NCBI GenBank assembly: GCA_009869945.1
Contig: WIXG01000050.1
Location: 124,001-188,000, forward strand
Length of the DNA: 64,000 bases
Direction of reading: 5' to 3'
DNA from: Mesaphorura yosii
Lineage: Eukaryota; Arthropoda; Collembola; Poduromorpha; Tullbergiidae
In this document: positions 24,301 through 63,900 of the stretch, piece by piece
Layout of the letters: every line of letters begins with the position of its first letter
Numbering within the stretch: the stretch's first letter is position 1
Program-made: the position numbers and the translations under genes
The notes under the pieces: model-generated
Database searches by the model: none
What the model was told of the DNA's origin: nothing
Seen by the model: only the letters and a program-made list of their open reading frames with translations

Positions 24301-27300
24301 TTTCTAAAGCAGCACCACCACTTCAAACGTGAATAACAGCACCAACAGAAAACTACTTCTCAGAATTTTGAATTAGCACAGTTTTGAACTTGTCTCCTTG
24401 TCGCTTGAAGTCAAATCCTCAAGCTATATTGACAGCGAAGTGCGAACTTACAAGGCTTAAAATTTTCACTCCATTAAAACAAGAGACAACAGCAATTGAC
24501 TTGACTTGATTTGACGAAGCCATCACATCACTCACTGCCCAGCCACTGACCACTTCTGTCCTGAATAATACGCGCATTAACTTGCTTTTAATTGGCCACT
24601 TCCGCTGCCTCGTCTTGTCTTGGCTCATGCATTTGGGAAACTCGCTTGTACTTGTAAAGCCTGTACCGCACCGTACCGTGGCTAATCTTGTACTGCTACT
24701 ACTCTGATCGTTTGTGTTTGTTTTCTTGTAGTAGGAAAATTCAATCATCTTTCTCAATTGTGCTTGCCAATGCCAATAATGATCTCTGCATTTACACGTT
24801 GAGTTGCAGTAACAGGTTAATTTACTTACTACAACCAGCGTTAGTCACAGCGTCATAGTCACAAGTCAGCCCTTTTCTTGTTCACCAAAATTGCAGTGCT
24901 AGACGTACATTTGCAAGTGCATCTCTCAACTGCCTCAACAATACAAAACATAGCACAGCTCACAGCTTCTAATCAACCTTTTCCCAAGCCAAGCCTTTTA
25001 GTTTGGTTAATAGAGCTTCAAGACAGAGATTCATCTCATCTCATCATTGCATTGTTATCTATCATCTTCTCATGCCATGTGTAAAGTGTAAGTCAAGCCA
25101 CAGCCTTTTTGTCCACATTATGGGCAATACAATAAGCTACGCACGTACTCCTCATTATGATCGCCTCCTTTTGTGATGCAGTGCACTGTGATGGTTTCTT
25201 GTCTCATTTGAGTTGCCCACTTAATTACGCTTTATGACTCTAAACAGTTAGCACTTTAACCTCTTCTTGCAGTTTTGCACTTGCTGGCTGCATTGTTTAC
25301 GTACAAAACTGCATTCTGAAACAATAAACGCCTTGTCGCTTCTCGCCAGTGCGTTTGAACGTACTCCGGGTGGTAACTCTAAAATGGATCTGGTCGTGAA
25401 GCGGTGAGGTTCGCTTTGAAATAATTACAGGTCAAGCTTATAGCTTACTTTAATTGCAGTTATGATTGGTTACATCAATACAACGGCGGGCAGTCTGTTA
25501 TTACCAGAAATGGAGGTGGTTAAACTTGTCAGAGAATCTCTTCGTGATTGATTACTCTTTTAATTAAATTCCGTTCACTAGATGGTAAATAATTACTACA
25601 AGTCAAGGCAGAGATTAGATCGAAGCCAACGACGGAGCAATGTCAATGCACATTTATGGCCTTGTGTTCGAGTTAATCAGTCAGCGTTAAGTGATTCAGG
25701 TTTATGTTTCAATTGGGAGATGATAGCAGTGAAATGGGAACAAGACGTGAGCTTCGATGTAGCTTGACAAGGTTACGCACGGCAAGGGTTTTAATAAACT
25801 TTCTCAAGTGACAATCAAATCAAGTTTCAAGTTCCTTATTTCACATGGCCAATTTCGCGTTTCGTCTGATTTAATAATTAAGATAAAGCGGATTCTAATC
25901 GGTTTTTCATGACCTGCACAAACAACAACAGACTGACAATTGGAAATCGAAAACACATAACTGAACTATTGACATATTGACAAAGTTCACTCTCACATTC
26001 AGAGCGCTAGGATGGTCAGTTCACCTTTTGATTGTTCAGACACGAAGTCATAATTTGTGAGGAATCAGAACGAAGAACGAGGAAGATTTTTCATTAAACA
26101 TGCTCTAAACAAGACTTCAAATCGAACACGAACACGAGTGTGTTTCATTGAAACCCTAATCATTGTTTGGCTTCATGGTCATAAATTATATCTCAATTTC
26201 TTGTGTTTGCTGTACGACAAAGTTTTTAATGTCCCATTAACTTGCCGGCGTGGCAGAGGCAGTAAAGTAAATTCGTGCTCATTGCAATGCACATGCACGC
26301 AAAGGCATGGCAAGATGCAATGGCGATGAATGGTTGACATTTCTTAAGACACGCGTGCATGCCGTCTTTAATTTCATGACTCGTTCACCAAAGTCAGTCA
26401 GTCAGTGCTGAAAATGTAAACATTTTACAGCTGTCAATGCGTACATGAGCGTGAACGGAACAAGTTTCCCAAAGCCCAGTTCCTGTCCTGCTTTGACTTC
26501 TGCTTCTTGGATGCTGATGCTACCGCTGCATGGCAAATTGGTTAAATACAAGTAACTCTATTTCACTGGCGCAATACACGTTTCCTCCTCAGCGTGTTTG
26601 GGTGAGTATTGCATTGCAACTGTAAACAGGCCGCTGAATGGTGGCCTTTGTGCCGAAAAATGCCATAAACCCTCACCGCATTGGTGCCATGCAGACTTTT
26701 GGCACAGATACAAAATGACAATGACCTCGTCACACGTCCTGCAAACACGTCTAATTCCAATCCGTTTTGTCTCCACAAACTTTGTAATAGCAATAAATCG
26801 ACGGTGATCATATTTTCGTAGTTCGTATTTACGAAACACAATAAGAACGACGTGAAGCCGTCAATATAATTGCAATCTTGTTTCCACATTTATTCCTGGA
26901 ACGGTAGATGCATCCACGCGGTCTAGGTTGCTTATGGAACTTCTACTTACCTCAGTCGAATCATGGAACTGCGAGGAGGATGACTGCGAGGAAGCGAAGA
27001 GCACTGGCGAAGAAGAGGCTGAGGATGATGAGGACGAAGTAGACAGACGAGTCATCTCTGAGCTCGAGTAAATACTGCAAATTAAACAGAGAGGAGAAAA
27101 TTAATTGCATGTTCACCAAAGAAGAGTTGAAAGACATGAAAGGAACGCTGTTGACTTTCAAGCAGTTTGGTGCTCGCACGTAGAAATCGTATCGATCGTA
27201 TCGTATTTATTTCCAGCACCAGTTTCATGCTTCAGTACAAACTCACGCTTTGTTTGGACTCGTCGCAGGCAAACTGCGAGCACACTTCATTAATCAAGAC

Positions 27301-30300
27301 CTTTTCGCTTCCTACTGATAAAATTATCAAGGCAGACCAATAATATAAATGGATTCGCCCGACTATTCAAATATCCTTGATTTAAGAAACAGATTCACAA
27401 ATCGATCTGCGGGTCTGCGAGTGCCGACTTGCCGTAGTCAAGCAGTCATCGCTCATGTCACGATGCTTCTTCCGTGCCTTAGAAATAGTAAATTAAGGCG
27501 AAGAAACGCAATAAATCATTTCGAGAGAAATTATCATAAAAAGTGACACCAAATAAACATTTTTGAAAAGATTCCAAGAACGAGGACTTGGAAAACTTGG
27601 AATGTAGTTAATCGATATATTTTTCATTATCAAGTTTATTTCAGAGTTCAGACGGATCAACTGGGATCCAACTCTATCCAAATCGTTCAAGAGGGTTAAG
27701 ACGTACTTGACACATTCGCGCGAACAATTTTGTCCCATGCCACAAATTCCTTTTGGGTTCGGCTTAGCATCGGCATTTGCAAGTTCTTTAGTGCTAAGCT
27801 ACTCTTACTCAGGGCTCAAGCCTTGAACTGACTTTGGATTGGCTCTGGCAAGCGCAAAATGGAACTCAACAACTCAAATAATTTTACAACCGGGCCAGAC
27901 ATCACAACAATAACTCGCCGGTGACATGATGACAGGAGGAAGAAAATAAATACCGCTCAGGCACACAATAGTCGACCGACAGCCTAGAAGTACGGAAATG
28001 AATCGAATCTCCAATGTTCAAGTTGGTGCTTTCGCTGCACACACGAAAACATGAACGTTACGTGAATGCGAGCGAGCGACGAATCTCGAATGGTGAATTG
28101 GATTATTTCGTCTCTATTTTGTAAATCCCTTTCAATTTCTTCCTTCTTCGTCTCTGTCTTGCGTTTTGCGTCTTGCAGTCTGCAAGTAGAAGCGCAAGTT
28201 CTTAGAACTACAAAGAAATTCTCAATAATCATTTCTCTCTGCTTCTTCCGCCGCGCCACTCGCGCTCGCACGGCCGAACACTGCACACTGCCATGCATTG
28301 CTCCTTAGTGCTACTTAATCCTATCTATTTCAAACTTACGAGAGGAAGAGGCAATAAAAACTGCCCATTCAAGAAGAAAAATACGGAGCTGAGAGAAATG
28401 TCATGGCTATTTGAACACTTTTATGGCACATGCAGAGAGCGGGCGCAAGAAACGAGAAAGCTTTATTAAAACGCGAAGTTTCCACTTGTATTTTCAAGTT
28501 TCCCATCGCTGGAACTTGAAATCATTATAATTGGGTTGAGCGTGGTCGTGGGACAATGGGAACTAAGACTAACGTCACAGAGAATTAGAGCCAGGCAGTC
28601 ATCATCTGTGCCTCCAGTAAATTAACGTCAATAAATCCATAATCATAAACCCGTCGCGTCGCGCTTCGTGTCTCGCGTCATTCTGCTGCTCTCTAGTTTT
28701 CTGGCTCTTGGTCAGTCGCCCGTCCCTCGAGACACTCAGCCTGATGAGCATTTTATGGCCATAAATATATTATAACATCACGCAGTCAGTCAATACCTTT
28801 CACCTTCACCCTCTTGACTCTGCTGGCTTTTCTCATGAGTATGACGACCCAAATGATTTGGTCTGCTCGGTCGTCTACTTGTACTTGCACGAAGTGTATC
28901 ATTCTTGTTATCAGTGAAAGATGAAGCACTTGGAGCAGAAGTCGAAGTCGAACCCGTAGAAGTGACGGGTTGAGTTGCCTGACCCTGTTGACCAGAAGAC
29001 GTAGGCGAAGGGGCTATGGCACTTGATCCCTGTTCGTTACTCATGTCGATTTCTGGTTGCCAGGTTTTGTTATTTATTACCAGTGCAGTGCAGGACCCAA
29101 ATGCAGCATTTTATTGTCTTACTAATTTATGAATATTATTGACAAATGAATGAATGCTACATGAGCAGAGCATGGAACATGTGTGCTGCTGCTGAGCGTA
29201 ATCTCAGTTTTCAATCTTCCATCAGTCCACTTCCATTTCTCCGTTCACATTCACATTTTCAACTCTACGCACCACGCACGCATTGTTGTTGTAACCAGGT
29301 CATTGTTTGTAGGATGACTAAGGAAAAATTCCCACCAACACATAGTCGATGTTCACTCTAATCAGGCTTTGCTTTCAGACTGTTGTGTTGTGCGTTGGTC
29401 CGTCTCCGTTGACAATGCGTGCACCTACACCGCCTATGCGACACGGAAACCTAACCATGAATCATGTGTCCATGTCCACTCTAATATAATTTAGGATGAC
29501 GCTGACATTCTGTTCTGTTCTGCTGTGCTGTATTATTTCAGGTGAATAGTGAACAATAATTTCTGAAACCACACACAGCGCTGAGCTGAGTTCTCGGAGA
29601 CACTTAATACAAATCTTGAGCACTAAACACTGCTAATACGCGTTAAAGGGTCCTTCGTCTTGTAAATAAACGTAATTGTTTAAGGATACCCTTATCAAAA
29701 CAGCAGTGCACTACAGTGCGGCCCAGCGACAATAGCACGTTGAAAATACAACAAAATAATTTACAACAATGTTTCCGTTTCCAGAACCCTGCAGGCAGGG
29801 ATCAAGCTCAAGTCAGAACTGAGAATAGAACCCTTTTGGTCTTGAAACTTCACTCTTCTTTTGGGTTTGACTCTGGGCTTGAAGAAAAGTTAGAAAATCA
29901 ACAGCATTTGAGTAAAATGGTCCGATCCAAATCTTGCCTGCCTTGCACGACAACACTCTCACTCGACTTGGTCTGACTTAAAAGTTTCTTGGTATCGCGT
30001 TCGCCTCGCCTTCTGAGTTCGAAGCTAGCCGATAAGCCAGACCATTAAAATTCGAAGATAGTCGTCTGAACAGGGCTACCCAGTCGCAGCCAGAAGACTG
30101 TGAACTTCTGCATCGGCCGCATTTATTGCGGGCAATAATTGTGTGGATGATAAGCGCATGTGATGCTTCACTTCACACACTTTTCCACAAAACTAACGCC
30201 AGCCAACACACAATTATGTTAATAATGTATGAGATCGCTTTCTGCCGTGCCTGCGCGAGAGCGTGAGACACAGACGAAGACTAGAAGTAGGAACGCTCTT

Positions 30301-33300
30301 GACGAGCGAGCAAGTCAAGATTTGACGAAGATCACTGCACTGCACGCATCACGCAGAAGGAAAGGCATCCAAATGCTATTTTTAATTTTTTTTGCTCCTT
30401 TAGAGGGGTTGATTTTCTTCGTACTCTTCGATCTCTTGAGCTTACGCTTGCCTGGCTTCCTTCTCAGACTCCATTTTATAGTCTTCTAAGGAAGTAGTAC
30501 CTCGGCTCGACTGTAAATTTTGCACTGCTCTGCACGGATAAAGACGACTGGAAAATAGTTCATTGAACAAACCAGACTTACTGTCTCTTCGTTGCAAAAA
30601 TTTGCTGGAAAATTTTAGCTGGCTTGGAATTCTACTCAAGGAAGAGTTGCGGAGGAGACAGACGACTACGGCAGCGGCTTCACGACACGAATACTTCACG
30701 GCCCACGGTCTCTGAAGCACTGGTGCGCTCGCACTCGCAGGAAGAAAGTTTCGGTGTGGGAGAGAAGCGATAGCAATGCGAAACGCGAAATACCCGATTC
30801 TGGAAAAGCCATGCAATAACATGTACCATTAAAAGAGAAGGAAAGGAGACCAAAGCCGACATGCGTGCGTACATGCACGAGATACGAGAGCCCGTTGCTT
30901 ACTGCTTTCCTTGCACGCACTGCTTGCATCTCGTTGCACAACGAGCTTTCGGGTTCCTCGGTGAAATTCGGCTACGGCGAGGAACCCAAATCAGTCAATA
31001 CCACTTCCATTACAAGTCTCTCGCCAGTCGTGCAAGTCTTTTCATTGCATTTCACCCACAATGTAAAATAACACTGCTTGTACGTACACCTTCGGTCTAC
31101 GAACTTGCATGGTCTTGTACAAAAATTTTACTTTCACATGTTCCCAAGAAGCAAAAGTCTTCAACCTACGCACAACACAGTGCACAACCCAAGCCAGTTC
31201 CCAACTTTCCTCAACTCCACTTGCCGTGCCGCCACTCCAGGAAAGTCCGAGCCAGCCAGGCCGCACGTTAACGTAATCGTAATGTGAAAGGAATACAAAG
31301 AAGTACACGGTTCTCATTCGTAGTAGTCAAGTTAAGAGAGAAATTCAACTTTCATACTGCTACTCCGACTCAAGAAGAGACCAAGACGAAAATTTCAAGT
31401 GGGGGAGAAAACTACGAGACGAGAAGGAAGAAAACAAAGGTGGAGTAAGCAGCACGCAGGATATTATGTGCTCTCATTTTATTAGTTCAAATATCTCGGA
31501 ATTTCGGACGCTAACCCTTCTCGTCCCACTCCTTACTGGCGGCACTTCGTGTTTGTACCTCGTAGCCATAATTCTATTCCATTTCATCATGATACCGTAT
31601 CGTAGTCGTATCTGGAAGCGAAACAGAAGCTAGGATATTATTATACCTCCTGCTTTCTTTCACGAGGTCTAAAATTGCAGCATCGAGTATAAACGAGTTG
31701 TACCAAATTTCATTTCGAGCAATAGTAGCAGCAGCATAAAAAACATGGTGAAGTGTAAACTTCTTCCAGGCCAGGCCATGAGTTTTCTATTTATTTATTG
31801 GATCATACCGTATACACACAACGTAATGAAATGCATTAACCGTACGCTTTCGCTCTCCTCGACGCGCTCTTCTGTATACTAACGAATCGACATGGGCTAA
31901 CTTTCTCTTCTTGGCTTTTGCTGTCTAGTCAAGTGTAAGTGAGAGAAAGCAGGTCTCCAACGCGAATAACTTTTGTTGTCCGTCCATTCTATGCGTTCCG
32001 CGTTCTTTGCATTATGCATGGTTTGTTTACAGTGTAGTACACCAGTTCGAGATACAAATGACCATTACTATTACGAAAACGACTATGATTCCTATTAGCA
32101 TTAGCCTGGTTTTGTAATCGGTCAAGCAACCCGAGTTGTGCGTGTTTTCTGTCAGCACGCGCTCACGTGTCCTGACATTGAGTGAAGCCAGCCAGCCAAT
32201 TCCCATACCCATTGCCCAGCGTGTCCGTCTCATGACAGTCATGACGTAAAATGGTCAACTGAACAACAACTCTTGAGCCTTTAAACTCCTCTCAATCTTT
32301 CACCGACCACGCACGAATCTGGAATGCCCTATTCAATGGACAGGAGTGTTCCAGTTTCTAGTTCTATTGCATTCAAGTTCAATTCAATGTCGGCCTCGTG
32401 ATAATGCTCGTGCTCGGATTCGAATGCATCATTGGCTTCTTTCTTTATGCTTACGCTTCTGCCTCTGCAGTCTGCAGTAAACAAATATTTATATGACGTG
32501 AACTATTTTTAGAATCGGCAGTCGGACTTGCTCTTTGATGATCTTCATCGTTATCCTTTGACGATTGTGGTTTGTCTATCTGACAATAGAATTTCATACT
32601 CCCATACTTATACGCTTTCCGCTCCCACTTGCACAAAGTTATGTGATTTGTTCTCTACTCCCACACTCGGGAGGCACCACGCTATTAGTGGCTATAAATA
32701 TGCTAATCTTCTTAACGGGAGAAAGATGAAATCCTCCATTTTTCAGCGTGCCCTGGATTTAAAATCGGATTCCAGCTACGCCGTCCCGTGTTTAAATTGG
32801 TCAGGGTCGTTTAGGCAGGTTCCATGAAAGCTAATACTAGAATTAAATTAGTTTTCCCCTGCCGTGAAACTATATCATTAAATTGATCGTTCTTCCTAGT
32901 ATCCTAGTGTTCTCAATTCCTAAAGACGATGCGTGCGAAATGAACATCGCCCACTGCTGCCATTACACTTTGACGTAAATAGACTTCCAGGGAAAATTTC
33001 TAGGATGGTACCCGGTTCCCGGTAATGAGAAGGTCAAACCTCGAAGTAGAAGGGGCAGAGTAATTACTTAATACCTACTCAATATCCATCAACACGACAT
33101 TGCGCCGAACCGAAAGCACTCCACCCAAGTACAGTGCATAATTAAAATACCAACCGTACTAGGAAAAGCTCTAGAATTACAAAATGTGTGACAAGGGTGC
33201 TAAAACTAATTAGCTAGTATGAGAACAACACACGTTTCTGCTATCATGTTCAAGAGGCACATTTCGTGAAAGCGCAGCGAAGAAATTTTCATTAAAATCT

Positions 33301-36300: not shown

Positions 36301-39300
36301 ACAGAAAAATTATTGATGAGCCCTCTTCCTTTTGCATTTCCCAAACAAACAGGTCGACACAACAAAATTCATTTCACCCATTTCTGCTTGACTCTACATA
36401 TCAGGTATCAGGAAATTCGAAGTCAGGCGTATCGCGTACTGGATTGGATTAGCATCGATTACCAATATCGAAGTTGACTTACTCTTCCAGGTTGAATGCT
36501 TTATGCGACGGTGAATGCACTTTAAGTATTGACGTCGCAGCCGTTGCGACACTCAACAACCCCAAGCTGACGTTGGTTGGAGAACGAGACCGATCCATCT
36601 TGTAATTAGGCACAGAATTGCGTCTGCGCTTGCGCCTGTAATTCTTGTCCTCAATTGAAAGTAGTTACATTCACATCAGTTCACCTAAAGTATAAATGAT
36701 GAACTTGACACTTCTTTCCTTCGCCGTACACGGCAGCCACAATTTTAATGAGTCCTTGTCTTGATTAAATATGAGACACGGCTTCCTTCTTAATTTTAAT
36801 CCATGGCCATGCTACAAGGACGACGGTGCGGTTGCACTGCACAGTGACTGCATTAGATCAGTCTTCACTTCTCGCTCAAGCCAGATCGGGTACGAGTTTG
36901 GAACTAAAATAAAATCATCCCAGTTGCTTAAATCCGTAATGACAGTCTTGCTTTCCTTTAGGCTGCACTGCTTGGTGAGAATTTTCGCCGTATTACGCAA
37001 TACAATCCATTTCTAGGTAACACGACGCGAACGTTAAAAGTAACAGCGCCACACCACAGCAGCAGTACAATTTTAATAGGCATAAATACAAAATTATTGG
37101 AACGGGAAGGACCACTGAACCATTTCAAATCACAACACAGACGCGATGCAATGTACTCTTGAGACTGCCAACAAATGGTCTTCTCATGGAAAAGTTTCCT
37201 TTCAGTTTAAAAAGGGAGATACGATGATTATTACGTACTGCTGTTCGTTTTTTGCTCTCGCAGTAGTGTAACCCATCTCATTTTATAAATAAACAGCTGA
37301 ATAGATGGATTGAATTGAGTTAAATGGGAGAAAGATCTTCGATAGCACCGCACCGTACTGCTACTGTTCAGTACAATGTTAAAATTTAAACATAGTAGCG
37401 GTCCATTTTTCTTCTTGTGGTTTTTATAAATAATATTTTTCAGTTCGAGTTAAGTTGATGGAGATGAAGAGCCGAGCCGGAGACGACCAGTACCGGCTTT
37501 TAGTTTTTTGTTGCGTTAAAATCCGTGTCCATTGCATTCTATTGCATCTTGCATCTGAGAGTTTTATGAAAAATTAGTTTATGTCTCGCACCACAACGAA
37601 AAACACGAGAACACGAAACACGATTGCTGTGATGTAATGATTTCCTTTTGGATGTCAGCGTATAAAAACTCACAGTCGCTTATTGCATTTGAAATCTGTC
37701 CTTTCTTGAGCATAAATACACACGCATATGTACAAACTACGTTTATTCTTCTGAAAAGAAAATAATTGAATCTCTCATCCTCTTCTCTTTTCTCTTGTGC
37801 ACTCGGTGAACTTGAATCCTCCTCTTCCTTTATACTCCTACAATTGCAAGCATTGCACAACAATTGCAGTACGGGAGAAGCTGTTTACTGTTCACTATTC
37901 ACTGCTGCTCGTGTTCATTCATTCATTCAGTTTTCCAGTAGCAGCAGCTTATAAGATTTCGTTCGTTCAAGCAGCTTTACTATTCATATTCATTATCTTA
38001 CGTGATCGGGATCACAATTCTCAATTCCCGCTCGAGTTTTTTTCGTAAGATTACACAATTTTGCTAAAAACTCTTTCGCCTGTCAATTTACAGAGTTCAA
38101 TTTACGGTTGAATAGAATCCCAAAGATTGAAGGTCGGCATTAATCACACAAAGATGCTTTCTTTCTTTGCTTCACGGCAAAACCGCCTTATACAAATACG
38201 CACTCAAAAATTCTGAATTCCAGCCCTTTCCATTGCCATAATTGAGGAAACATCTTTCAACACGATTCAATTGTTTTTATTTTTCTCGGGCTAGATAAAT
38301 AGCACTCAGAACATTAACCAGTTACAGTTCACCGCACAAGCTCCAAACACAAAGGCAGGTACTTACAGCGATGATAACCGACTCACATGCACAATGTCAC
38401 GAAAAGTCAGAAGACAATGGAGAATGAAGTTAGTCAAACAGTTGACTGGACTTTGATAACGGCAAGTTTTGAGTTTTGTTTTAAGTCCGTAACGTGGGAA
38501 AATGTGAAACTCATCACCTCGCCACTGCTGCTGCTGGCAAAGATGATCTCGTAATGAGAGCCACAATCGTAGTGATTAACTTTATCGACGGTGCGTTGAG
38601 TAGCGCGTTGCAGCCAGCGCAGCGTCCAAAAGAAAGTTGCACTGTGGACTGCGCACTGACAACAAAACTCTGACTGACTGCTGACTGGGTTCGTGCATTG
38701 CACTAGAACGAATAAATCCAATTTGCGCGAATGCTAAGCATATGGAATGGAATTTTATATGATTCTATATCGACTCTTAATTCTTTTGTTTTTTATGGCT
38801 AGGCTGAGAGCAATCGTACTCGTAGTAGTAATGGGTAATGTGAGTGTATGAATTCGCCGTCACGCCACGACCCAGACTCAAGCCCAAGTTTATACTCGTT
38901 AAATTCAAGTTTAGCTGTGCAATTTCTCATTTCACTTTTTTTTTCCTGCATCAAATCACATGACGCAGTGTAGAAACGAGTTACGGCGTACGTTCGAGTT
39001 ATGCGATATAATAATTTTATGTAATGCACGAAGATTAGGTTACGAGAGGCAGAGCTGAAGCTAAACTAATGGCACAGCAAGGTTTGAGTACACAAGGAGT
39101 TCATGGTGCCGATAGACACAAATGCAAGAACTTGTCCGATGGCATTTATGAATATTTTAAATTGCTCTCCAGGCCAGGCCGGTCAAACTCAAACTGTGCG
39201 CACATCAAGAATTAAACTTTAAGCGCTTAAACTGAGCTGAAACCCAACACCACTTTAAACTTAAACTCAAATTCTTTTCACCAAGCCATAAACCTCAAAT

Positions 39301-51300: not shown

Positions 51301-54300
51301 AAATTCCCCAGACTTACGAATCTGCACGACAGGTTACTTAATTCAGAGAGGCAATAAACGCTTCTTGTGGTCTACCACTAGCAGACAAGACAAGATATGA
51401 AGCGCATGTTTACAAGTGTCTAGTTTCTTGACATGATGCGCTGCTCCGTTTTAATTATAACTGTTTCGCATTTCCTAAACAAAGCACAACCTGCAGGATA
51501 CGATGTGATGGTTTCGAGACAGGAGCAGGCATCGAATTACAACAGCATTGCGGGAGGCTTATCATTATACGGGAATCTTCCATGCACAAATAAGGGTAAT
51601 GTGTGAAGTTAATTAGAGAGCATACTGTAAACTTCATTCAGAAATCGGGACCAAGAATCAAGACAGGCATCACATCAAATCGAATCTTCATAAGCAGAAT
51701 AGTTAAACTACACGATCACACGTCGTATGATGTTTTCGGTTTTGAGGCAAAAATTTTGCTGTGTGGGCAGGTGCTTTATCTTGCCAGGAGCTCTATATGA
51801 TGAATCAAGATCATAATCGAAAGATAATATTTTTATGGCAGACTCAATCCCAATGGCAGGTGCTCTAATTTAACCCAATCTTAAAATGCCTTCCGCGCCC
51901 GGACACATGAACATTTAATATCTGCTTCGTTCTCAGCTACCTCATTTACACTTTCAGAACTTCTCACGACAATGAGACGAGCACGAGCATCTTATTAAAA
52001 AGATTGTAATTAAAATCTCGCAAGACCTGCACCCCAGCACTGCAAGAATGAATTTCAGCACCTTTCGTGGCCTTCACTGTTTTGGATGTTGGGTCTGTGG
52101 TTTGCATAATCAAGAAAGTTCTGAGAACGAAACACGCCAACCACTAGCCAAGAGCCTCAGTATTAGCGTGTTACAAAATCAGATTTTCACTTCTTTTGGA
52201 ACTTTGTAAGAGCGTTAGCTCGTAAGTTTATGAGACGACCGGTGAGCAAGTAGCTGCTGTTACACGTGCATAAATGATAGTAACAGGCTAGCACGCACCT
52301 TAAATTATTATCCCATGCTGGTGGGAAAATTCTACTGACTCACATATCGTAAGCAGCATCGTCAGGAAAGCCCACATTAATCTCATTTGAAAATCTCTTT
52401 GAAGTTTTTGATATTTCCAAATTGCAACGCGCCGGAATAATGACATAATAACATAAATCAAGCACAATCAAGTAAACGAATGGTACGCTGACTGATGTCT
52501 GAAACCTGAATGTTTGTAAGTGCATAAGAAACCGTGTCTTAACAATGCTTCGATTTTGCTTCATGAACTTAACTATGTGTCACACAGCGGTAGAAAGTCT
52601 TATTTGTCTTCTGGAACGAAGTCCATCACGTACTCCGCCTGAGTTAAACCTGAGAACAAATTGTGAGTCAACCTCGGCCTTGACATTATTTTTATGAACT
52701 TTAGGTACAAGCTTTAATTAAAAGAAAAGCCGACATCGATACATGCTGATTGAGTTCAAAGACCAAAGAGAGAAATCTACTTTTGATTATCCTTGCTCGC
52801 AGCTATTTGTTGAGACCTAAGAACTAAGTTAAAGAATTATTGAAATGAGTAACAATTAATGGAGACCTTCACTTCGTTTCACATGCGTTTGTCCTGTTTT
52901 GTTGGGTGGGCCAATTCTGCAGATGCACATCATCCAAGGGAAAGCATTGAAATGAACTTCATCATCTAGCATCTAGCCTCACGCAATCCAATCCTCAATC
53001 AATCTGATGCACTGATTTTGAAATAACCCAACGTCACAAAATCCCAGATGTGATCCGCCCGAGACCTACTTCCTCAATCTCATTTCATTCCGATGAATCC
53101 GATGCAGTTACAAATGAGATTCTTAATACTGTCAGCAAATGCTTACAATTTTTCTTGATGATTGCATGTCAAACTCTTTTTATAAAACTGTGTTCGCATT
53201 CGCATATTCGCACTCGCAGGAAGCTTTACATTTACCTTTTCATCATTCTTCTTTGCTTTGAAATCCAATTCACTAGTTCAAAATCAAGCTCAATGTTCAA
53301 TCAAGTTTTAAATAAAGATTTCTTCAATTTATTACAACGAGCGCATATGTTGTTCATCTTGAGAAGTAAACAAAATTCAAGTTCCCCAGAAAGCAGGCAC
53401 TCAGAAATGGAAACAATGCAATACTTCAACCGTGAAAATAAAACGAAATGAAATATAAATCAAAACCAGTATACAATTGTTATGATGAGTTACAAACATA
53501 ACAATTGAGCCAAAAATAAAAAATGCGAGCATCATACGAAATAATGATGCAAATGTTTCCATTGCGAATTCGGACAATGATAGTCTACAGCTAAACGGCA
53601 ACGCCAGCAACAAGAGCGAATGAAAGAAGATTGAGACTCGAGAAATCTAGATCAGTCGAGTCGATTCGGAGCAAGCAATGCAAAATGAGCTGTTAGAGTT
53701 CTGCTGACACACTTACTTACCTTCTATGCAGAATGTATGCACGGGATCGACACAGATAATGCGCGTAAGGATCCGAAAGCTGACCTTCGCTGTTATAAAC
53801 TCTTCGCCGGAGATTTGAAGCGAGTACCGCTTCGCTGTATTCAAGCACAGACTCATCTTCGTCAAACATGGACATGGTCGTCACCGTCTTTCGAGAATTC
53901 TTGAGTTTGGTTCTGCGCTTCATTTTTTATTAAAATTGAACAAAGTTGGGTTCAGCCAGCAAAAGGAAGGATGATCGTTGATTTAAATCCTAACTGTTTA
54001 AGTCAATCATAGGGTCATTTCTTAAAAATGATTAAGTACCCTAATGTCAGTAATTGCTACTCAGACGATTCACACTTGAATTGTTTCACATGTGGACCAG
54101 TCAGCCCGAATCCACTTTTTACAGTGGATCCTCTTTTTAATGAAGTTTAATAGCTTAACACTTTAAACTGCGGGCGAAATTCTGATAGCAAGACAATGAA
54201 CCAATTATCATAATGAGCGTAGTAAGATTCTCGCCAAATAGCAACAATCCAGTTTTCCGCGTGTCTGAGTTTGACTTGAAGTTCATCAAGGTCATCGATC

Positions 54301-57300: not shown

Positions 57301-60161
57301 CACCTGCTCTTTCAACCATGGAAAATAAATGCATTTCCAAGTTCATGAGCTATTAACTTCTAGACTTTTCGGCATGGTAAGTTAAATCTAGAGTTTTAAA
57401 GTTCAGTCTTCAAATGAACCCGAAGATTCTCGCTTGTTTGCCATCAAAGCTTCAGGTTGCAGATATGAGCAGGCAAACACTTCGCCGCCTATTCGATATT
57501 TTCTAACCTTCAGTCATAGACATCCTTTAGTACAAGTTACGTTGAGTTACACAGAGTTGACTGTACTTTACGAACCGGAACACGAACAAGGTCATGCACA
57601 ACAATGATAGCAATGGAAGTAATGATCTTGAATATTAAGTAATCACTGGATTTATTTCGGCTATTAAAGCCAAGTGTCTAGTTCCTTTTTAACTTACATT
57701 ACTTGCACCGTAGCAGAATATACAAATTGGGCAAAAATCCAAGAGTAAGATTATCTATTCAGTGACACTGTCACCTGTTTGTCACGGTCGATTCTTATGT
57801 GCGTTCATCAGCTAGAGTGACACATTTTAAACTGATACAGCTACCGCATTAAAATGCAAAACGAAAGATGAACAAACGACTCACAGACTACGCACTTGAA
57901 AACGCCGCGATTTGATCACTTAACAATTGACCCAACCATAATTAATAATAGCCGAATAGCCCAAATATTCAAATTGTGGCTCACCTATGGGCTCTCAGCT
58001 GTGCCATCCTTCTCGCAATCCTCCAGTGATGGAATTCGCGCTTGTACATTGTTAATCGCAGTTGCCTCTAAACTTCTCAAAAGAAACACTCACTTGCGAA
58101 TTTTAACTTGTCTCACTCCTGGTTCAGAAATTCTCAACTGAACTGATGGTTAACTAACTAAACAGTGGGTTTATTAAGTTGATGATTGAATGCGAAACGA
58201 ATGACAGGCACGTGCAGCCACGACATAGGACACAGTACACAGTATCACATGCAAAATTCCTGTGAAGCAAGTTATAAAATGTTGAAGCTATTAAAATTGG
58301 TTCATATGATTATTACGTAAAGGCAGTATGGCATAGCATTATTGAGCAGCTTACTACGTCTAGAGTCTGCTCGTGGTCGATTGTCACTCCAATGTCATTG
58401 TCATTAAACTCTGCATTGTGCATCGGACGCGCAGCAGCACGCAACCCAGTCTATATGCTCGAAATTAATGTAGTGCAATTTATTATGCTATGCAATTACA
58501 GATTTGCCTGACAGCTAGCACAACCTTTGGACCCCTTCTCGGAGAACTTCAAGAATTCAAGAACAGCCAGTCAATAAAATACTCACTGCCGACGGTTAAT
58601 TAGAAAGGTGTGAAAATTTATGTAAAGTCCATTCGATATTTATTGCATTGTTACCCCTTCTCCATATTAAACAAGAAACGAGAAAGGTACCGCTCGGACC
58701 CCTGTAACGGTGCATGCAATCATTAAGTAGCGGCACTTCTTTCTTATGGAAATGCCGGTCGGCCCCTTTGTTTCAACCTGCTTCCTTTGAGGTTTTGTCC
58801 GTATAAACCGAGACTACAGAATTTATTGCAAATTACTCTTAGTAATTGAATTCCAGGATTTTTTTTCAGATTGTCTCATCCATTAAAAGCAAGAATCACC
58901 TATTGACATTTTTGTATGCCGTCAGTTTAACGGCAGCATTAATACCACAAAGATACCTTCGACTCTTCGCTACTTGAATAGAAGCGACTTCAGTTACACT
59001 CATTGGCCAATAGTGTTAATAATGGTGTACATGATTGATTTTGCTTTTGCTTAGATACTTCCCTATACTTTTAATCTGCGATGGTGGAAATTGGGCAAAT
59101 CTTGGACTCTCTCTCATATTGCCAGCCGTAAATGCGAATCATTGCGATCTGTATGTCAACGTAATTAACCGACAATGCTAAAGAAAAAAATCAATACCAA
59201 TGACACCATCATTTAAAAGAGCACTTTAAGCTCACCATATTTGGTCAAGTGCCGAGGTATAATTATTTGCACGATGAGAGTTGGCGATAGCATAATCCAA
59301 TTTACTCGGCAGTACAATCAGGAAGTCAACATTATACAATTTATGTAATAACCGTTTTGGCAGACAGTATCGCATAATGAAATGCAATTGACATTTACTT
59401 GGACGCGATCTAAATCCTGAGCCTCCTATGGATGAAATTATGAGAATCCAATAAGGCGATAATACGATGCGGGTATTCGAAAACTAAACTAAACTAAACA
59501 AAGTACTAAACTAAATGGAATTAAAGAAATTGGCAAATTCTTACATTGTCTTTCCATCGTCCACACGTGTCTCATGGAAATGATTTCCGTAATACAAAGA
59601 ATCTTGTGCATTCTCGTCGCTAATCGCGAAAGCATCCGTGTGAAGGAGTTTCGGTCGCATTTTCTCGTTGTTATTGTTGTTGATGTAGCGCCTGCCCAGT
59701 CTGACAGGCCCAGACCCCAATCTTGAGCTCTCATTACCATTTTTCTTGGAGTTGCATGTGTCGTCGTCGTGTTCACCATCTGTGTCTCCATTCTCATCCA
59801 GATTAAGGTCATCATCGTCTCCACCGCCAACGCTTGTGCTGCTGCAGCTTCCAATTCGACCCAATTCACTGGCCAGAATGTCCATGTTCAGATGATGAAC
59901 TTCACACAGTAAAGCGTCTCTCTCATTAGTTACGTTCAGCACTTCTTTCCTGAGTTTGCGGATTTCTTCGGCTTGCTGTCGAACGAGCAGCAATAAACTG
60001 GCCTCACTGCCCGCTCCTGCCACGCCATTGCTTGCACTTCCCGGAGGCAATGCGATGCAGCCTCCTGACAGCGTCGGTGTCAACGTCTTCGTTGCTGTCA
60101 CTAATTGGTGGCTGTACCTCTCAGCCTTTACTGGCGTTGCTGCTCCGTTGATCGATTCCAT
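12114..60161 (-). CDS. IQSEC: IQSEC/BRAG-family Arf guanine-nucleotide exchange factor (schizo/loner homologue), longest confident isoform
   Basis: Exons 60161-59545, 27074-26951, 20645-20557, 18284-18177, 15349-14328, 14252-14147, 14065-13939, 13342-13314, 13225-12949, 12852-12399 and 12316-12114 encode 1051 residues. Every junction agrees in phase. Domains in order: coiled coil (54-100), Ser-rich exon (207-247), IQ motif spanning two exons ([17 protein letters not shown], about 266-285), a long Ser/His/Gln linker, Sec7 (about 612-810, starting [17 protein letters not shown], with [13 protein letters not shown]), and PH (about 830-945, [28 protein letters not shown]). The tail is rich in Ser, Gln and Asn. 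The family activates Arf6 or Arf1 at the plasma membrane, binds calmodulin through IQ, and acts in myoblast fusion (fly loner) and at synapses. Sec7 differs from vertebrate BRAGs in its active loop. The first intron is 32.5 kb. Other first exons are listed separately. Confidence 0.9.
13314..13342 (-). CDS. IQSEC: IQSEC 29-base microexon inside Sec7
   Basis: CTAG acceptor at 13343-13346 and GTAAGT donor at 13313-13308. It encodes RYGVCNPQV plus two bases and joins FSQ on one side and (T)[11 protein letters not shown] on the other. It matches the family's Q-RY-x-V-C-N-P segment exactly in register, so skipping it would both shift the frame and break Sec7. Confidence 0.88.
15350..18176. other. 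IQSEC intron, no exon accepted
   Basis: 2.8 kb. A short GTCGCT hexamer repeat (three copies) lies near 17500-17518. A segment at 16682-16781 has an acceptor, a donor and an open frame, but does not fit the flanking phases. Nothing else was recognised. Confidence 0.5.
18285..20556. other. IQSEC intron between the two halves of the IQ motif
   Basis: 2.3 kb of AT-rich sequence with no recognisable gene. A GTGAGC donor-like site on the minus strand near 19630 has no ATG-opened frame before it. Confidence 0.5.
20557..20645 (-). CDS. IQSEC: IQSEC exon carrying the first half of the IQ motif
   Basis: TTTGCAG acceptor at 20646-20652, GTAAGA donor at 20556-20551. It enters in phase 0 and leaves in phase 2. 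It reads [15 protein letters not shown] and then [13 protein letters not shown], matching the family's MLERKYGG...AARTIQTAFRQ segment. The phase-0 entry matters, because first exons lying between this exon and 26.95 kb must end in phase 0 to join it, and two candidates do. Confidence 0.87.
24452..24748 (-). CDS. IQSEC: Candidate IQSEC alternative first exon, phase 0 (99 codons)
   Basis: An ATG at 24748 opens 99 codons ([20 protein letters not shown]..., with a basic [14 protein letters not shown] stretch in the middle) ending at a consensus donor, CTT|GTAAGT. The exon ends in phase 0, the phase accepted by the next exon in the gene (20645-20557). The product would replace the Ser-rich exon and join straight to the IQ segment. 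No homologue is recognised. The alternative is a chance open frame with a chance donor. Confidence 0.4.
26677..26889 (-). CDS. IQSEC: Candidate IQSEC alternative first exon, phase 0 (71 codons)
   Basis: An ATG at 26889 opens 71 codons ([19 protein letters not shown]..., ending SLHGTNA) to a donor GCG|GTGAGG. It sits just downstream of the Ser-rich exon on the minus strand and ends in phase 0, so it can join only from the IQ exon onward. This is the second case where position and phase agree. The residue mix is hydrophobic and Cys-rich. The family relation is unknown, and chance is not excluded. Confidence 0.35.
26951..27074 (-). CDS. IQSEC: IQSEC common Ser-rich exon, acceptor for the first-exon array
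   Basis: TTTGCAG acceptor at 27075-27081 and GTAAGT donor at 26950-26945. It enters needing one base to complete a codon (phase 2) and leaves in phase 0. The frame reads [12 protein letters not shown], then a Ser run with mixed Ser codons, ending FHDSTE. An internal ATG at 27055-27053 could serve as the start for any transcript with a non-coding first exon. Confidence 0.8.
27247..27290 (-). CDS. IQSEC: Candidate short IQSEC first exon ([14 protein letters not shown])
   Basis: An ATG at 27290 opens 14 codons plus two bases to GC|GTGAGTTTG, a strong donor in phase 2. It lies only 172 bases before the common exon, so the intron would be of normal compact size. The shortness makes chance possible. 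Confidence 0.35.
27707..27738 (-). CDS. IQSEC: Candidate short IQSEC first exon with acylation-like start ([10 protein letters not shown])
   Basis: An ATG at 27738 opens ten codons plus two bases to AA|GTACGT, phase 2. The start MGQNCS fits the N-myristoylation pattern (Gly2, Ser6) with a neighbouring Cys that could be palmitoylated. Such a lipid anchor would suit an Arf6 exchange factor. Evidence is thin because the exon is only 32 bases. Confidence 0.2.
28340..28368 (-). CDS. IQSEC: Candidate short IQSEC first exon (MGSFYCLFL)
   Basis: An ATG at 28368 opens nine codons plus two bases to TC|GTAAGTTTG, a near-perfect donor in phase 2. It is a hydrophobic Met-Gly start. Short enough to be chance. 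Confidence 0.22.
28797..29044 (-). CDS. IQSEC: IQSEC alternative first exon (MSNEQGSS..., 82 codons)
   Basis: An ATG at 29044 opens 82 codons plus two bases, ending in phase 2 at AG|GTATTG, and joins the 27074 exon in frame. The sequence is low-complexity Ser/Thr/Gln/Pro ([20 protein letters not shown]), then a basic [20 protein letters not shown] stretch. Composition and codon use resemble the other IQSEC exons. The full product with the common exons would be 928 residues. The nearest long first exon, only 1.7 kb from the common exon. Confidence 0.62.
31088..31317 (-). CDS. IQSEC: Candidate IQSEC alternative first exon (76 codons)
   Basis: An ATG at 31317 opens 76 codons plus two bases ([18 protein letters not shown]..., later [20 protein letters not shown]) to GT|GTACGT in phase 2. 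The same donor style is used by confident exons in SMCR8, PPWD1 and the 44 kb exon. An aromatic, hydrophobic N-terminus followed by a Trp/Gly-rich stretch. No homologue is known to me. Confidence 0.33.
32031..32242 (-). CDS. IQSEC: Candidate IQSEC first exon with a membrane-helix-like end (70 codons)
   Basis: An ATG at 32242 opens 70 codons plus two bases, ending in phase 2 at CT|GTAAAC, a weaker donor. The frame starts [17 protein letters not shown] and ends with Lys-Thr-Arg followed by a strongly hydrophobic run ([18 protein letters not shown]), typical of a single transmembrane helix. If real, it would give a membrane-tethered exchange factor. The donor is the weak point. Confidence 0.22.
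32455..32597 (-). CDS. IQSEC: Candidate IQSEC alternative first exon ([13 protein letters not shown]..., 47 codons)
   Basis: An ATG at 32597 opens 47 codons plus two bases to GC|GTAAGC in phase 2. The content is polar and protein-like ([20 protein letters not shown]), ending LLQTAEAE. The frame is open 13 codons further upstream without an ATG. The stop lies inside the donor, as phase-2 GTAAG donors require. Confidence 0.42.
34457..34659 (-). CDS. IQSEC: Candidate IQSEC alternative first exon ([14 protein letters not shown]..., 67 codons)
   Basis: An ATG at 34659 opens 67 codons plus two bases to GT|GTAAGC in phase 2. Charged start ([20 protein letters not shown]), a basic middle ([15 protein letters not shown]), end HQSMVLSRA. 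It has the same length and phase as the 53.9 kb exon (203 bases), without visible similarity. Confidence 0.42.
34888..34962 (-). CDS. Candidate first exon in phase 0 ([18 protein letters not shown]...)
   Basis: An ATG at 34962 opens 25 codons to CAA|GTGAGT, a strong donor in phase 0. It could join the IQ exon at 20645 only by skipping the common Ser-rich exon. The vicinal cysteines (LCCETPF) are palmitoylation-like. Alternatively chance. Confidence 0.22.
36483..36598 (-). CDS. IQSEC: IQSEC alternative first exon ([14 protein letters not shown]..., 38 codons)
   Basis: An ATG at 36598 opens 38 codons plus two bases to GA|GTAAGTC, a consensus donor in phase 2. The sequence is protein-like and rich in G/C-ending codons: [20 protein letters not shown], then a Ser/His/Lys stretch ending AFNLE. 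It lies well inside the array. The start is the only ATG in the frame, and a stop (TAG) is seen upstream within 30 bases. Function of this N-terminus unknown. Confidence 0.6.
37239..37276 (-). CDS. IQSEC: Candidate short IQSEC first exon ([12 protein letters not shown])
   Basis: An ATG at 37276 opens 12 codons plus two bases to CA|GTACGT, phase 2. Another Met-Gly start. Too short to separate from chance. Confidence 0.2.
40188..40294. promoter_or_regulatory. Cluster of four TEAD/Scalloped-type CATTCC sites
   Basis: CATTCC or its complement occurs at 40188, 40232, 40269 and 40289, four times in 107 bases, where about 0.05 would be expected. Two lie in a 12-base inverted repeat (GCATTGCATTCC at 40226-40237 and its complement at 40269-40280). 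CATTCC is the core of TEAD (fly Scalloped) sites. An intronic enhancer is plausible but inferred. Confidence 0.35.
40573..40775 (-). CDS. IQSEC: Candidate IQSEC alternative first exon ([14 protein letters not shown]..., 67 codons)
   Basis: An ATG at 40775 opens 67 codons plus two bases to GT|GTAAAC, phase 2 but a weaker donor (no G at +5). The sequence is Trp/Cys-rich ([20 protein letters not shown]) and ends ANEFQII. Protein-like, but graded down for the donor. Confidence 0.28.
43991..44313 (-). CDS. IQSEC: IQSEC alternative first exon ([20 protein letters not shown]..., 107 codons)
   Basis: An ATG at 44313 opens 107 codons plus two bases to AG|GTACGT, phase 2. A hydrophobic start ([20 protein letters not shown]) is followed by an acidic block, a Ser run, a Cys-rich stretch (CGSCRDCNC) and a Ser/Ala-rich end (SCAVSPS). 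Codon choice is GC-richer than the surrounding intron. Joined to the common exons it gives 953 residues. The open frame continues past the donor, so the exon is defined by the donor, not a stop. I recognise no domain. Confidence 0.62.
49788..49831 (-). CDS. IQSEC: Candidate short IQSEC first exon ([14 protein letters not shown])
   Basis: An ATG at 49831 opens 14 codons plus two bases to AA|GTAAGC in phase 2. An acidic, helix-prone peptide. It may be a real short N-terminus or chance. Confidence 0.3.
52344..52564 (-). CDS. IQSEC: Candidate IQSEC alternative first exon ([14 protein letters not shown]..., 73 codons)
   Basis: An ATG at 52564 opens 73 codons plus two bases to AT|GTGAGTCAG, a strong donor in phase 2. 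Basic start, a hydrophobic segment in the middle ([18 protein letters not shown], long enough for a membrane helix) and a polar end ([14 protein letters not shown]). If used, it could place a membrane segment before the IQ/Sec7/PH core. Confidence 0.42.
53721..53923 (-). CDS. IQSEC: IQSEC alternative first exon ([14 protein letters not shown]..., 67 codons)
   Basis: An ATG at 53923 opens 67 codons plus two bases to AG|GTAAGT, a perfect donor in phase 2. A strongly basic start ([18 protein letters not shown]), an acidic middle ([14 protein letters not shown]) and a basic/Tyr end ([12 protein letters not shown]). Joined to the common exons it gives 913 residues. The sequence before the ATG (run of A) is not a good acceptor, which supports a first exon rather than an internal one. 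Confidence 0.62.
56956..57346 (-). CDS. Unassigned two-exon candidate (not in IQSEC phase)
   Basis: An ATG at 57346 opens 85 codons plus one base ([20 protein letters not shown]...) to a possible donor G|GTGAAG at 57090. A 72-base intron ends at a good acceptor (GTTGTTGCAG), and a 63-base exon at 57018-56956 reads [20 protein letters not shown] and ends G|GTAAGC. Both junctions are phase 1, so the piece cannot join the IQSEC common exon. It may belong to a separate minus-strand gene nested in the intron, or be chance. No homologue recognised. Confidence 0.25.
57985..58049 (-). CDS. IQSEC: Candidate IQSEC alternative first exon ([20 protein letters not shown])
   Basis: An ATG at 58049 opens 21 codons plus two bases to AG|GTGAGC, phase 2. 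The peptide is very basic, with His/Trp/Arg and an amphipathic-helix pattern, a plausible membrane-phosphoinositide-binding N-terminus. A short exon, so chance cannot be excluded. Confidence 0.4.
59479..59517. repeat. TTTAG pentamer repeats just downstream of an IQSEC first-exon donor
   Basis: On the minus strand TTTAG occurs five times within 39 bases, 28-66 bases after the donor at 59544. It could be an intronic splicing element for UAG-binding proteins, or a simple repeat. Confidence 0.4.
59545..60161 (-). CDS. IQSEC: IQSEC first exon of the long isoform, with coiled coil (205 codons)
   Basis: The ATG at 60161 has an in-frame TGA 24 bases upstream. The exon ends AT|GTAAGA in phase 2. After a Gly/Ala/Ser region, a coiled coil runs from about 54 to 100 ([20 protein letters not shown]), comparable to the N-terminal coiled coil of vertebrate IQSEC2/3. 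Acidic Asp/Gly-rich and Asn-rich stretches follow, then [12 protein letters not shown], reminiscent of the RRPKLQHS segment of IQSEC1. Confidence 0.75.
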
Positions 60162-60902: not shown

Positions 60903-60995
60903 ATGCAGGTGACGATCCCGCTGTGTGCTGCCCGCTCGTGCTATCGTCCTTCCTCAGTTTCTTCACCGGCTGTTCTGGTTTGGCTTTGGGCTTCC
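60903..60995 (-). CDS. Unassigned internal exon, Lys/Pro/Ser-rich
   Basis: A good acceptor (CAATTATTGCAG) and donor (AT|GTAAGT) bound 93 bases with only one open frame: KPKAKPEQPVKKLRKDD, then STSGQHTAGSSPA. It enters and leaves in phase 1, unlike the IQSEC first exons. The GC-rich, polar content looks coding. It is probably an exon of another minus-strand gene entering from the right. The protein family is not recognised. Confidence 0.42.
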
Positions 60996-63900
60996 CTGCA
61001 ATAATTGCTTGACTTGACTTATTACTGTTCTTCGAGGAAATTAGGGTCTCCTCCTTTGTGTGTTTCCGGTCATGGTGCAGGCGTTCGTTCGTTGCTCGTT
61101 GGTGCTGGGTTCTTGATTAGAATTGACTTGTGTGTTGTATTTGTATCAAGTCTGTTCGTTTGTCGTTTTTCGATTCTCATACAGGCGAAGGATCAAAAAA
61201 TCCAAACTCGTTCAAACCAAATGGTATTCTTCTTCTCACTGCGTCGTTGTCCGAATCCCTGATGTGTTTTGAACCAATTCTTATGAGTACGTCTAAGCGT
61301 CTTGTATAACGTTGTATACAACACAGTACCAATGCAACGGATGACAAACTTTGTTTTTGACTTAACTCCAACAATTGGCACTGAAATGTTCAGTTGCGCA
61401 CAATTTATTGGTTGCACTGTGGCCATGCAGTGTACGAAACACGAATTGAAGTTATTGGAGCTCCAAAGTAATCCAAAGTTCCAAAGATGTATTTGAGTGA
61501 GTTGACTGTTGGTTCGCCTTCCTAAAGGCAGAGAACAATGACAGGGACAGAAATTAATTTTTAAGCTGGACTTGACCAGATCGCGAACGAGAACAAGAAG
61601 GAGCAACAAACTACACTACGAATTAATGTACCGTTTTGTCTTGGCTTGTCCAGTGACTAAACTCAATGGCAAACACGAGCACGGTCATGTCATGTTGGAC
61701 CACTGAAGATTAACTGCGTACGTAACGTAAACCAATGAACTATTCGTTGTTCAGTCACTCTTGTCTTGTTATGCCATTATTTATTTGCTTTGTTCACACT
61801 TCTTCATCTTTACACAGCACAGTTGTTGTTGCTTTGCATTCATTCAACTTTCACTAAATACAATGTCCTGTCCTGCCCTGCGCCGCACTGTTAAATAATC
61901 CTATTTGGTATTTTTGTCTTTGTTTGGTCTGAGGTTCGAGAATTAGAATTTATTACGACATTTATGTCGTGTCAGTACGCACAGGCACTCAGTCACCACC
62001 ACTACACGGCGCATCAGCCTTTGTGGACAATAATGAGATGAATCAAATTATTCGTACGTCTGCCTACCTTACTCTTGGTCTTACTCTTGTACCTCATTCT
62101 ATTATTGAAGTTACTGTACCCCACTGGCGATGGCGACAAAAGGATTACGTCACCAGTAATTTTGACACTACGGTCAGCCCACATTGGAAATACACAAACA
62201 AGATCACTCATCGCGCCAGATTTGCAAACGAAACCACTGTACGATGGAAATGGATCACGCAGCCTAATCTTACAGCTGACTACTGGATAACTCTGAATCT
62301 ATTTAATCGATAATGGCGCACGTAAACGGAGAAAGGAGACAAATACTTGGTGATGGTGATATTGGAGCTGTAGTTCGTCAATTAGTGCGCATCTTCTCCC
62401 AACGCGATAAGTGTGATTAGGCGAAAAATTATGAATCATGAAGCTTTTGTCCGAACTTCGCAACTTTCTATGAAAGATGCCTTCTGCGGATTGTACATTG
62501 CAAAAGTGCAGGCATTCCCATATTGTTTTTGCATTGTTAATCTGGTCAGACAATACACACACCTTGCCAATGTACAACAGTACAAGTTGTCTTGCAAAGC
62601 CATAAATCACCTGAATAACAAGGCAAAAGCGTTGTAACTCGATTGCAGGACCAGCAAAAACAGAAATTCCAGCCCATAACTTTAATTGAGGCATAGTGAA
62701 TTCTGCCCTGATGGTTTCTCTTACGCTTAGATTAAGATATCAACTTACACGATGATGAGCAATAGGCAACAAGTAATAACTGTCATAGTGGTCAATGTCA
62801 TTGCATTACTCATATCATTAATATCATGCACATGTAATCTGGCTATGGCTGTCCGACAAGGTTTACTTTGAAACTTAATATTGTACAACTTTGATGAGTT
62901 AATCTTATGGTACAGATTCTGCATTTTTATCATTTCATTTCAACGTATACTCCACGCTTGTGTACTCCACAATACATAGAATAGAAATTAATCACGTACG
63001 ACTCATGTTTGGTTTCAAGTATACGTTGCTTGACGGGAATGGTAAATATTATTCTGGCTTGCCCTGCTTGATAATTTAAACTTGTCTTTAACTTCGGGTT
63101 TGGGCTGAATCATCCTCCTTCAATGAGTAATGCAATTGCCAACTGATACTTGCTGAACTTGATAATAAATGGTAATCACAGTCTCGCTTGTCCAAATATC
63201 GATAACCCTACCGTAGAAGTTCAATGTCAAATGTCGAATATCATCAATGACGGTTATTGGATGTTTCGGTGATTGACAGAGCCCAGAGTAAATATTTGTG
63301 CTTATGTCTGTCGGTCCGTAAAGGAAAGTGTGTTGCTAATTTTCCTGTGTCTTTTTCCAGACGAGTCAAGAGTTTCAAAAAAGGAACACAGGCACAGGGT
63401 GAGGTAATTAACAATGAACAACAAAAGAATTAAGATCAGAACACGAAAATGAATGCTGGCTTGGCTTAAATTAGTGGATGCTCTAAATCTTGGTTTGCAT
63501 TTATAAGACTAAATGTGTCTGTCCATGACACAACAAAGAAATCTAAAGCCGAATTGCGGACGGCAAGACTGCTTCTCGCTAAGTGGCGATGACCATGATT
63601 CATCCTCAGTTGACTGATATTTATTTTTGTTATTTGCCCTACATTAAATTGTTTTTAATTGATCAGCACACTTTGCAGACCCGAAGTCAGTACGATAGCG
63701 TTTGAGACTTTCAGTAAACAAGCACATAAGTGAAAAGTCATCAAGTAAAGCCTACTAATGAGTCATCATTTTAAAAATTGCAATGACCCGATTTCACTTC
63801 TTAACGGATGTATCCTGAACACGTGTCGAGGGTGGACGCCGAATCAAACTGATATTAAAAATTATTTGGGCAAGGTTAGCCACTCTAAAGAAGTTTATAA

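Follow-up and report, generated by a model that had tools for sequence, protein, structure and literature searches.

Candidate alternative first coding exons upstream of an IQSEC/Schizo Arf-GEF gene in the collembolan Mesaphorura yosii

In this study, we analysed a window of 64,000 nucleotides from the collembolan Mesaphorura yosii (assembly GCA_009869945.1, contig WIXG01000050.1, positions 124,001 to 188,000; positions below are those of the window unless stated), the minus strand of which carries a gene of the IQSEC/Schizo (BRAG) family of guanine nucleotide exchange factors for Arf (Arf-GEFs). Our preferred reading, to which we assign a probability of about 0.6, is that one IQSEC core is served by a few alternative first coding exons, each with a promoter of its own and each spliced in phase 2 to base 27074, the acceptor of a common exon. 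The best-supported number of these mutually unrelated exons is about three to five, and not seventeen. An earlier note on this DNA had proposed about seventeen of them, laid out as in the protocadherins; its central idea, that alternative first exons lead into a single Arf-GEF core, is retained here, whereas both the number and the likeness to protocadherins are given up.

In the arrangement we propose, the approximately 36 kb upstream of the common exon would form a long 5′ region, probably transcribed, within which exon 60161, very likely exon 44313 and probably exon 53923 serve as first coding exons, perhaps together with 29044, 58049 or 32597. Transcription of each would begin at a promoter nearby, and the products would carry unrelated N-termini on a single IQ-Sec7-PH core. 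The choice of N-terminus may then determine the location and the partners of the Arf activator.

The IQSEC core and its common exon

By its domains, the gene at 12-27 kb on the minus strand is an IQSEC/Schizo Arf-GEF. Its Sec7 domain is found in two parts, at 13939..14424 (PF01369, E 9.1e-20, in a match that spans an intron) and at 13015..13212 (PF01369, E 5.3e-22), and is followed by an open frame at 12376..12891 with a PH domain of the IQSEC type (PF16453, IQ_SEC7_PH, E 6.5e-52; human IQSEC1 structure 3qwm, E 3.5e-46). This order of Sec7 and IQSEC-type PH domain, found with the PF01369 pieces, PF16453 and IQSEC1 PH structures, marks membership of the IQSEC/BRAG family. Further upstream, an exon at 20557..20645, with borders and frame set by eye, holds the start of an IQ motif. 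Together with the next exon it stays below the Pfam cut-offs (18.6 bits against 20.3 for PF00612; 25 against 27.7 for PF24609), and the position of these sub-threshold matches, upstream of Sec7, suits the IQSEC/BRAG order.

The common exon, at 26951..27074 on the minus strand, is Ser-rich. Judged from its splice sites and frame, it takes up the reading frame in phase 2 and passes it on in phase 0 to the IQ exon at 20645. Its acceptor at 27074 scores 7.8 bits (rank 40 among 2566 scored AG sites) and its donor 11.0 bits, which bears out the phase-2 entry described earlier. That phase 2 is the sole phase this exon accepts holds for coding first exons; it does not hold for exons that supply a leader only. 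An in-frame ATG at 27055, absent from the earlier account, lies within the common exon, and leader-only first exons of any phase could therefore feed it. Some transcripts may accordingly begin translation at this internal ATG.

Candidate first exons and the excess in phase 2

We defined a candidate first exon as an ATG-opened frame of at least 45 nt ending at a donor-like site in the region 27247-62933. Coding character was scored with a three-periodic model trained on open-frame pieces totalling 38 kb from this contig, the tested region being excluded from the coding set. Tested on 209 held-out coding pieces and 746 non-coding frames, the model reached an area under the curve of 0.94, a flattered value since it had itself picked those coding pieces. 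Each coding score was compared with those of null frames of like length, drawn from outside the tested region and the remainder of IQSEC; for the two exons above 90 codons the best 90-codon stretch was set against the first 90 codons of null frames, which slightly favours the exon. A combined score added coding, start context and donor.

All the candidates described here lie on the minus strand and end in phase 2 (a slash marks the exon border). The strongest is exon 60161, at 59545..60161, with 205 codons and a donor AAT/GTAAGA of 8.1 bits. Its coding score is 39 bits, its best 90 codons reach 31.0 bits, a level attained by none of 60 null frames, and its combined score is 49.8. On this evidence it is clearly coding, and among the candidates it alone is safe as a coding exon; its splice to 27074 is a prediction. 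By eye it contains a helix-like stretch with heptad-like leucines, for which a PDB search returned five matches, the best with an E of 0.3. The helix may resemble the N-terminal coiled coil of human IQSEC2.

Exon 44313, at 43991..44313, has 107 codons rich in Ser and Cys and a donor AAG/GTACGT of 8.8 bits. Its best 90 codons score 16.4 bits, again above all of 60 null frames, and its combined score is 18.0 bits. Exon 53923, at 53721..53923, is basic, with 67 codons and the best donor of the set (AAG/GTAAGT, 11.5 bits); its coding score of 2.7 bits is reached by 9 of 191 null frames, and its combined score is 16.1 bits. In-frame stops stand close before both ATGs, 5 codons upstream in exon 44313 and 2 and 3 codons upstream in exon 53923, and both would for this reason fit start exons rather than internal ones. 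Exon 29044, at 28797..29044, encodes 82 codons rich in Ser, Thr and Gln and scores 9.6 bits for coding, which none of 91 null frames equals; its phase-2 donor AAG/GTATTG is weak, at 4.5 bits.

Two further frames are possible first exons. The short frame 58049 (57985..58049, 21 codons) has a combined score of 14.2 bits and a coding score equalled or beaten by 94 of 1821 null frames, while frame 32597 (32455..32597, 47 codons) has a combined score of 10.9 bits and a poor start context (-1.8), its coding score being attained by 5 of 478 null frames. Frame 36598 (36483..36598, 38 codons), with a donor AGA/GTAAGT of 6.7 bits, is not supported as a coding exon: its coding score of -8.5 bits is non-coding-like, being equalled or exceeded by 331 of 738 null frames.

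The candidate start exons that combine coding character with a fitting donor are 60161 and 44313, with 53923 borderline and 29044 having the weaker donor in the fitting phase. The earlier note had called five exons solid. The ATG-opened phase-2 frames of 60161, 53923 and 44313 are indeed there with their donors, the first coding and the last coding-like, and 29044 is coding-like despite its weak donor; of the five, 53923 comes out as borderline and 36598 drops out.

Four exon translations gave no Pfam match above the cut-off. Searches of the organism's own assembly (93 Mb, 1127 contigs) with three exons and one DNA stretch returned only self-matches and weak ones (E 0.9-3.9), which made an allele or paralog comparison impossible; each of the three exons, 60161 among them, occurs at a single place in the genome.

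Taken as a group, the good phase-2 candidates on the minus strand are in excess. The control DNA comprised 123.4 kb which, minus one stretch inside IQSEC, amounted to 226 kb over both strands for the combined-score test, and these controls err on the strict side because they may contain real unrecognised exons. At a combined score of at least 14 bits, the minus strand of the region gave 0, 1 and 4 candidates in phases 0, 1 and 2, the plus strand none in any phase, and the controls 7, 3 and 2. The controls lead one to expect 0.32 phase-2 candidates per 35.7 kb. The four observed, 60161, 44313, 53923 and 58049, have a Poisson probability of 3e-4, and the three besides 60161 one of 4e-3; none of 400 Markov simulations yielded four. 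The lone phase-1 candidate at this threshold is 29044, through a donor that the earlier note had not used. Leaving out start context, at a threshold of at least 12 bits, gave 0, 1 and 5 on the minus strand, none on the plus strand and 8, 7 and 3 in the controls. A re-fitted model with 150 simulations gave five candidates, four of them in phase 2, the simulated mean being 0.22.

The claimed array, rival explanations and the surrounding DNA

The earlier note had counted about 17 first exons by hand and reported that phase 2 outnumbered the other phases by about three to one. Its donor threshold was not stated, so that exact agreement is not to be expected. With donors of at least 6 bits we obtained 15, 18 and 16 minus-strand candidates in phases 0, 1 and 2 (15, 18 and 17 when the same region was read within the contig). 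These counts are compatible with equal shares (P=0.87) and reject a 3:1:1 distribution (P=0.0004), and the reported excess is not borne out. Sixteen phase-2 frames do exist, close to the number claimed, but they stand beside 15 and 18 in the other phases and 11 of them have negative coding scores. Over 20 combinations of donor and length thresholds, a clear lead of phase 2 appears only among long candidates (at least 120 nt): with donors of at least 6 bits, phase 2 accounts for 9 of 20 candidates, its share in controls being 12 of 64 (Fisher P=0.02), and at a length of at least 150 and donors of at least 7 the counts are 0, 3 and 6 against 9, 5 and 5 (Fisher P=0.05). When phases are counted by eye across so long an upstream region, chance frames can be taken for an array.

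Among the alternatives to a small set of first exons, the one that survives best, clearly less probable than our preferred reading yet deserving serious weight, is that only 60161, perhaps with one more, is a real first exon and that the other phase-2 frames arose by chance in a long intron. The even sharing of phases overall would be expected on that account, 36598 looks non-coding, and control DNA likewise yields candidates of at least 14 bits (12 in the 226 kb of both strands). What it leaves unaccounted for are the three further phase-2 candidates at that threshold, against the 0.32 expected, and the coding scores of 44313 and 29044, which lie above every null frame of like length.

Several observations weigh against a small set of first exons, and in part they favour this first alternative. 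Over all phases, the five candidates compare with 1.9 expected from control DNA, a modest excess, and the concentration of four of the five in phase 2 has a P of only 0.045. Some 5% of null frames score as well for coding as 53923 and 58049 do. For 29044, a phase-1 donor at 28804 (AAG/GTGAAA, 6.1 bits), 7 bases upstream, beats the phase-2 donor. The weight tables used to score donors, acceptors and start contexts were general ones, softened by eye and not learnt from this DNA; they were adopted because iterative learning of splice signals collapsed on false introns within coding sequence, a stricter version giving 38 introns of mixed quality. Nor do promoter signals help: a simple scan found no TATA words near five of the six ATGs, and initiator-like words near the six ATGs occur at about the background rate, CpG content being uninformative.

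The composition of the region bears on whether it is transcribed. In the non-coding DNA of 27-63 kb, the minus strand is richer in G than in C and in T than in A; the plus-strand GC skew is -0.065, which falls outside the span of -0.010 to 0.036 given by 195 overlapping windows of 36 kb taken from the remainder of the contig. A weak skew in the same direction (0.013) marks the coding strand in 40 gaps, 51 kb of introns and some spacers, that separate coding pieces of one strand in other parts of the contig. The skew at 27-63 kb points to minus-strand transcription over a long stretch. On the other side, the skew is reversed at 12.4-20.6 kb, within the same IQSEC gene, and a two-border fit places the limits of the plus-strand excess of C over G at 22.0 and 73.5 kb (window coordinates, the second past the window end). 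These limits lie beyond the gene, the second passing the next recognised minus-strand gene, COQ5-like, at about 71.7 kb.

A further feature lies upstream of exon 60161. At 60814-61116 the minus strand has an open frame without a usable ATG, ending at a phase-2 donor (CAT/GTAAGT), and its segment 61095-60907 is coding-like (15.2 bits); it could be an internal or a leader exon. Such a piece is what one would expect if some of the coding-like pieces belonged to another, unrecognised gene or were internal exons of a longer 5′ part of IQSEC, and the lack of Pfam matches for the four exon translations leaves their kinship to IQSEC putative. We nevertheless judge this second alternative improbable: the stops just before the ATGs of 53923 and 44313 suit start exons, and no other gene was recognised at 27-64 kb by scans of open frames, Rfam, tRNAs and a few Pfam queries.

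The large array itself, ten or more first exons of which many would be short and poor in coding character, is the least likely reading of all, for although 16 phase-2 frames have donors of at least 6 bits and short exons give so little coding signal that single ones could still be real, phases 0 and 1 are equally rich (15 and 18), 11 of the 16 have negative coding scores and a 3:1:1 distribution is rejected; on this evidence the array is not there.

Some other features of the surrounding DNA may be recorded. On the minus strand at 24061-24186, an ATG-opened phase-0 frame could be spliced straight to the IQ exon; its score is equalled or exceeded by 36 of 606 null frames, and a more coding-like phase-1 frame starting at 24136 overlaps it. 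At 1745-2281, on the same strand, a Ser- and acid-rich open frame is strongly coding by score and includes a 27-base tandem repeat (2181-2240). The COQ5-like methyltransferase exon lies on the minus strand at L009:7652-7792 (PF01209, E 2.9e-9). Two minus-strand coding pieces that look similar by eye, L009:2787-2930 and 5236-5388, each have no Pfam match when searched alone. For the minus-strand pieces near 66.8 and 69.3 kb a SEC14-like identity was not supported, as no Pfam family was found for either. Neither Rfam nor tRNA scans found anything in the window.

Likeness to known systems and meaning for the family

The layout proposed here, a small set of first coding exons before one IQSEC core, recalls the clustered protocadherins, UGT1 and the chelicerate sDscam genes, in which, according to the accounts consulted, variable first exons or cassettes are likewise spliced to constant exons (PMC1885805, PMC4835542). 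The variable exons of those systems are described as tandem duplicates, whereas the candidates here are mutually unlike. All-against-all blastp of seven candidates gave no pair at E<=1, and a blastn self-comparison of the region gave none at 1e-3, which rules out paralogy of the candidate exons at these thresholds. Since no two candidates are alike, the layout is not protocadherin-like, contrary to the earlier suggestion. A closer likeness is offered by DPP6, DPP10 and KChIP, reported to have several alternative first exons that place variable N-termini on a common core, with five DPP6 and four DPP10 variants (PMC3973911); these are unrelated proteins, and expression is proven there, while the first exons here are candidates.

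Within the family itself, alternative N-termini are on record in vertebrates, in agreement with the earlier note. In human IQSEC1 (BRAG2), alternative initiation is reported to give unique v1 and v2 N-termini before the common part (PMC7955138), and mouse Iqsec1 takes fifth place in a table of the 20 genes that show the largest numbers of start-site switching events in cerebellum (PMC5470264). Human IQSEC1 thus has, in that description, two unique N-termini before a common extension; the gene examined here would have perhaps three to five. The human IQSEC1 study reports that invasion required the N-terminal extension common to v1 and v2 and not the unique v2 N-terminus (PMC7955138); given this dependence on the shared extension, unique N-termini need not carry function. 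Schizo/Loner of Drosophila also has N-terminal variants, its two proteins being said to differ only in the first 12 residues (PMC10810563), compared with candidate modules of 67 to 205 codons here. The N-terminal coiled coil of IQSEC2 has been reported to mediate self-association, for which reason a coiled-coil-like first exon would fit the family. In searches of open-licence papers we recognised no invertebrate IQSEC gene with more than two coding starts, genome-browser annotations being outside that scope.

A more far-reaching version of our reading is that there are five or more first exons, mostly long and unrelated modules (a 205-codon coiled-coil-like one, and Ser/Cys-rich, basic and Ser/Thr/Gln-rich ones), and that promoter choice places the Arf activator. 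We regard this as tentative and rather doubtful; such a set would be more varied than those the cited reports describe for fly Schizo or human IQSEC1. Even then, the arrangement is of a known kind, in a known gene family, and would not represent a new type of gene organisation. If several of the exons are real, the gene would provide a natural series of N-terminal modules for a single Arf-GEF core, of use in studying the role of the N-terminus in a protein family with links to intellectual disability and epilepsy in humans.

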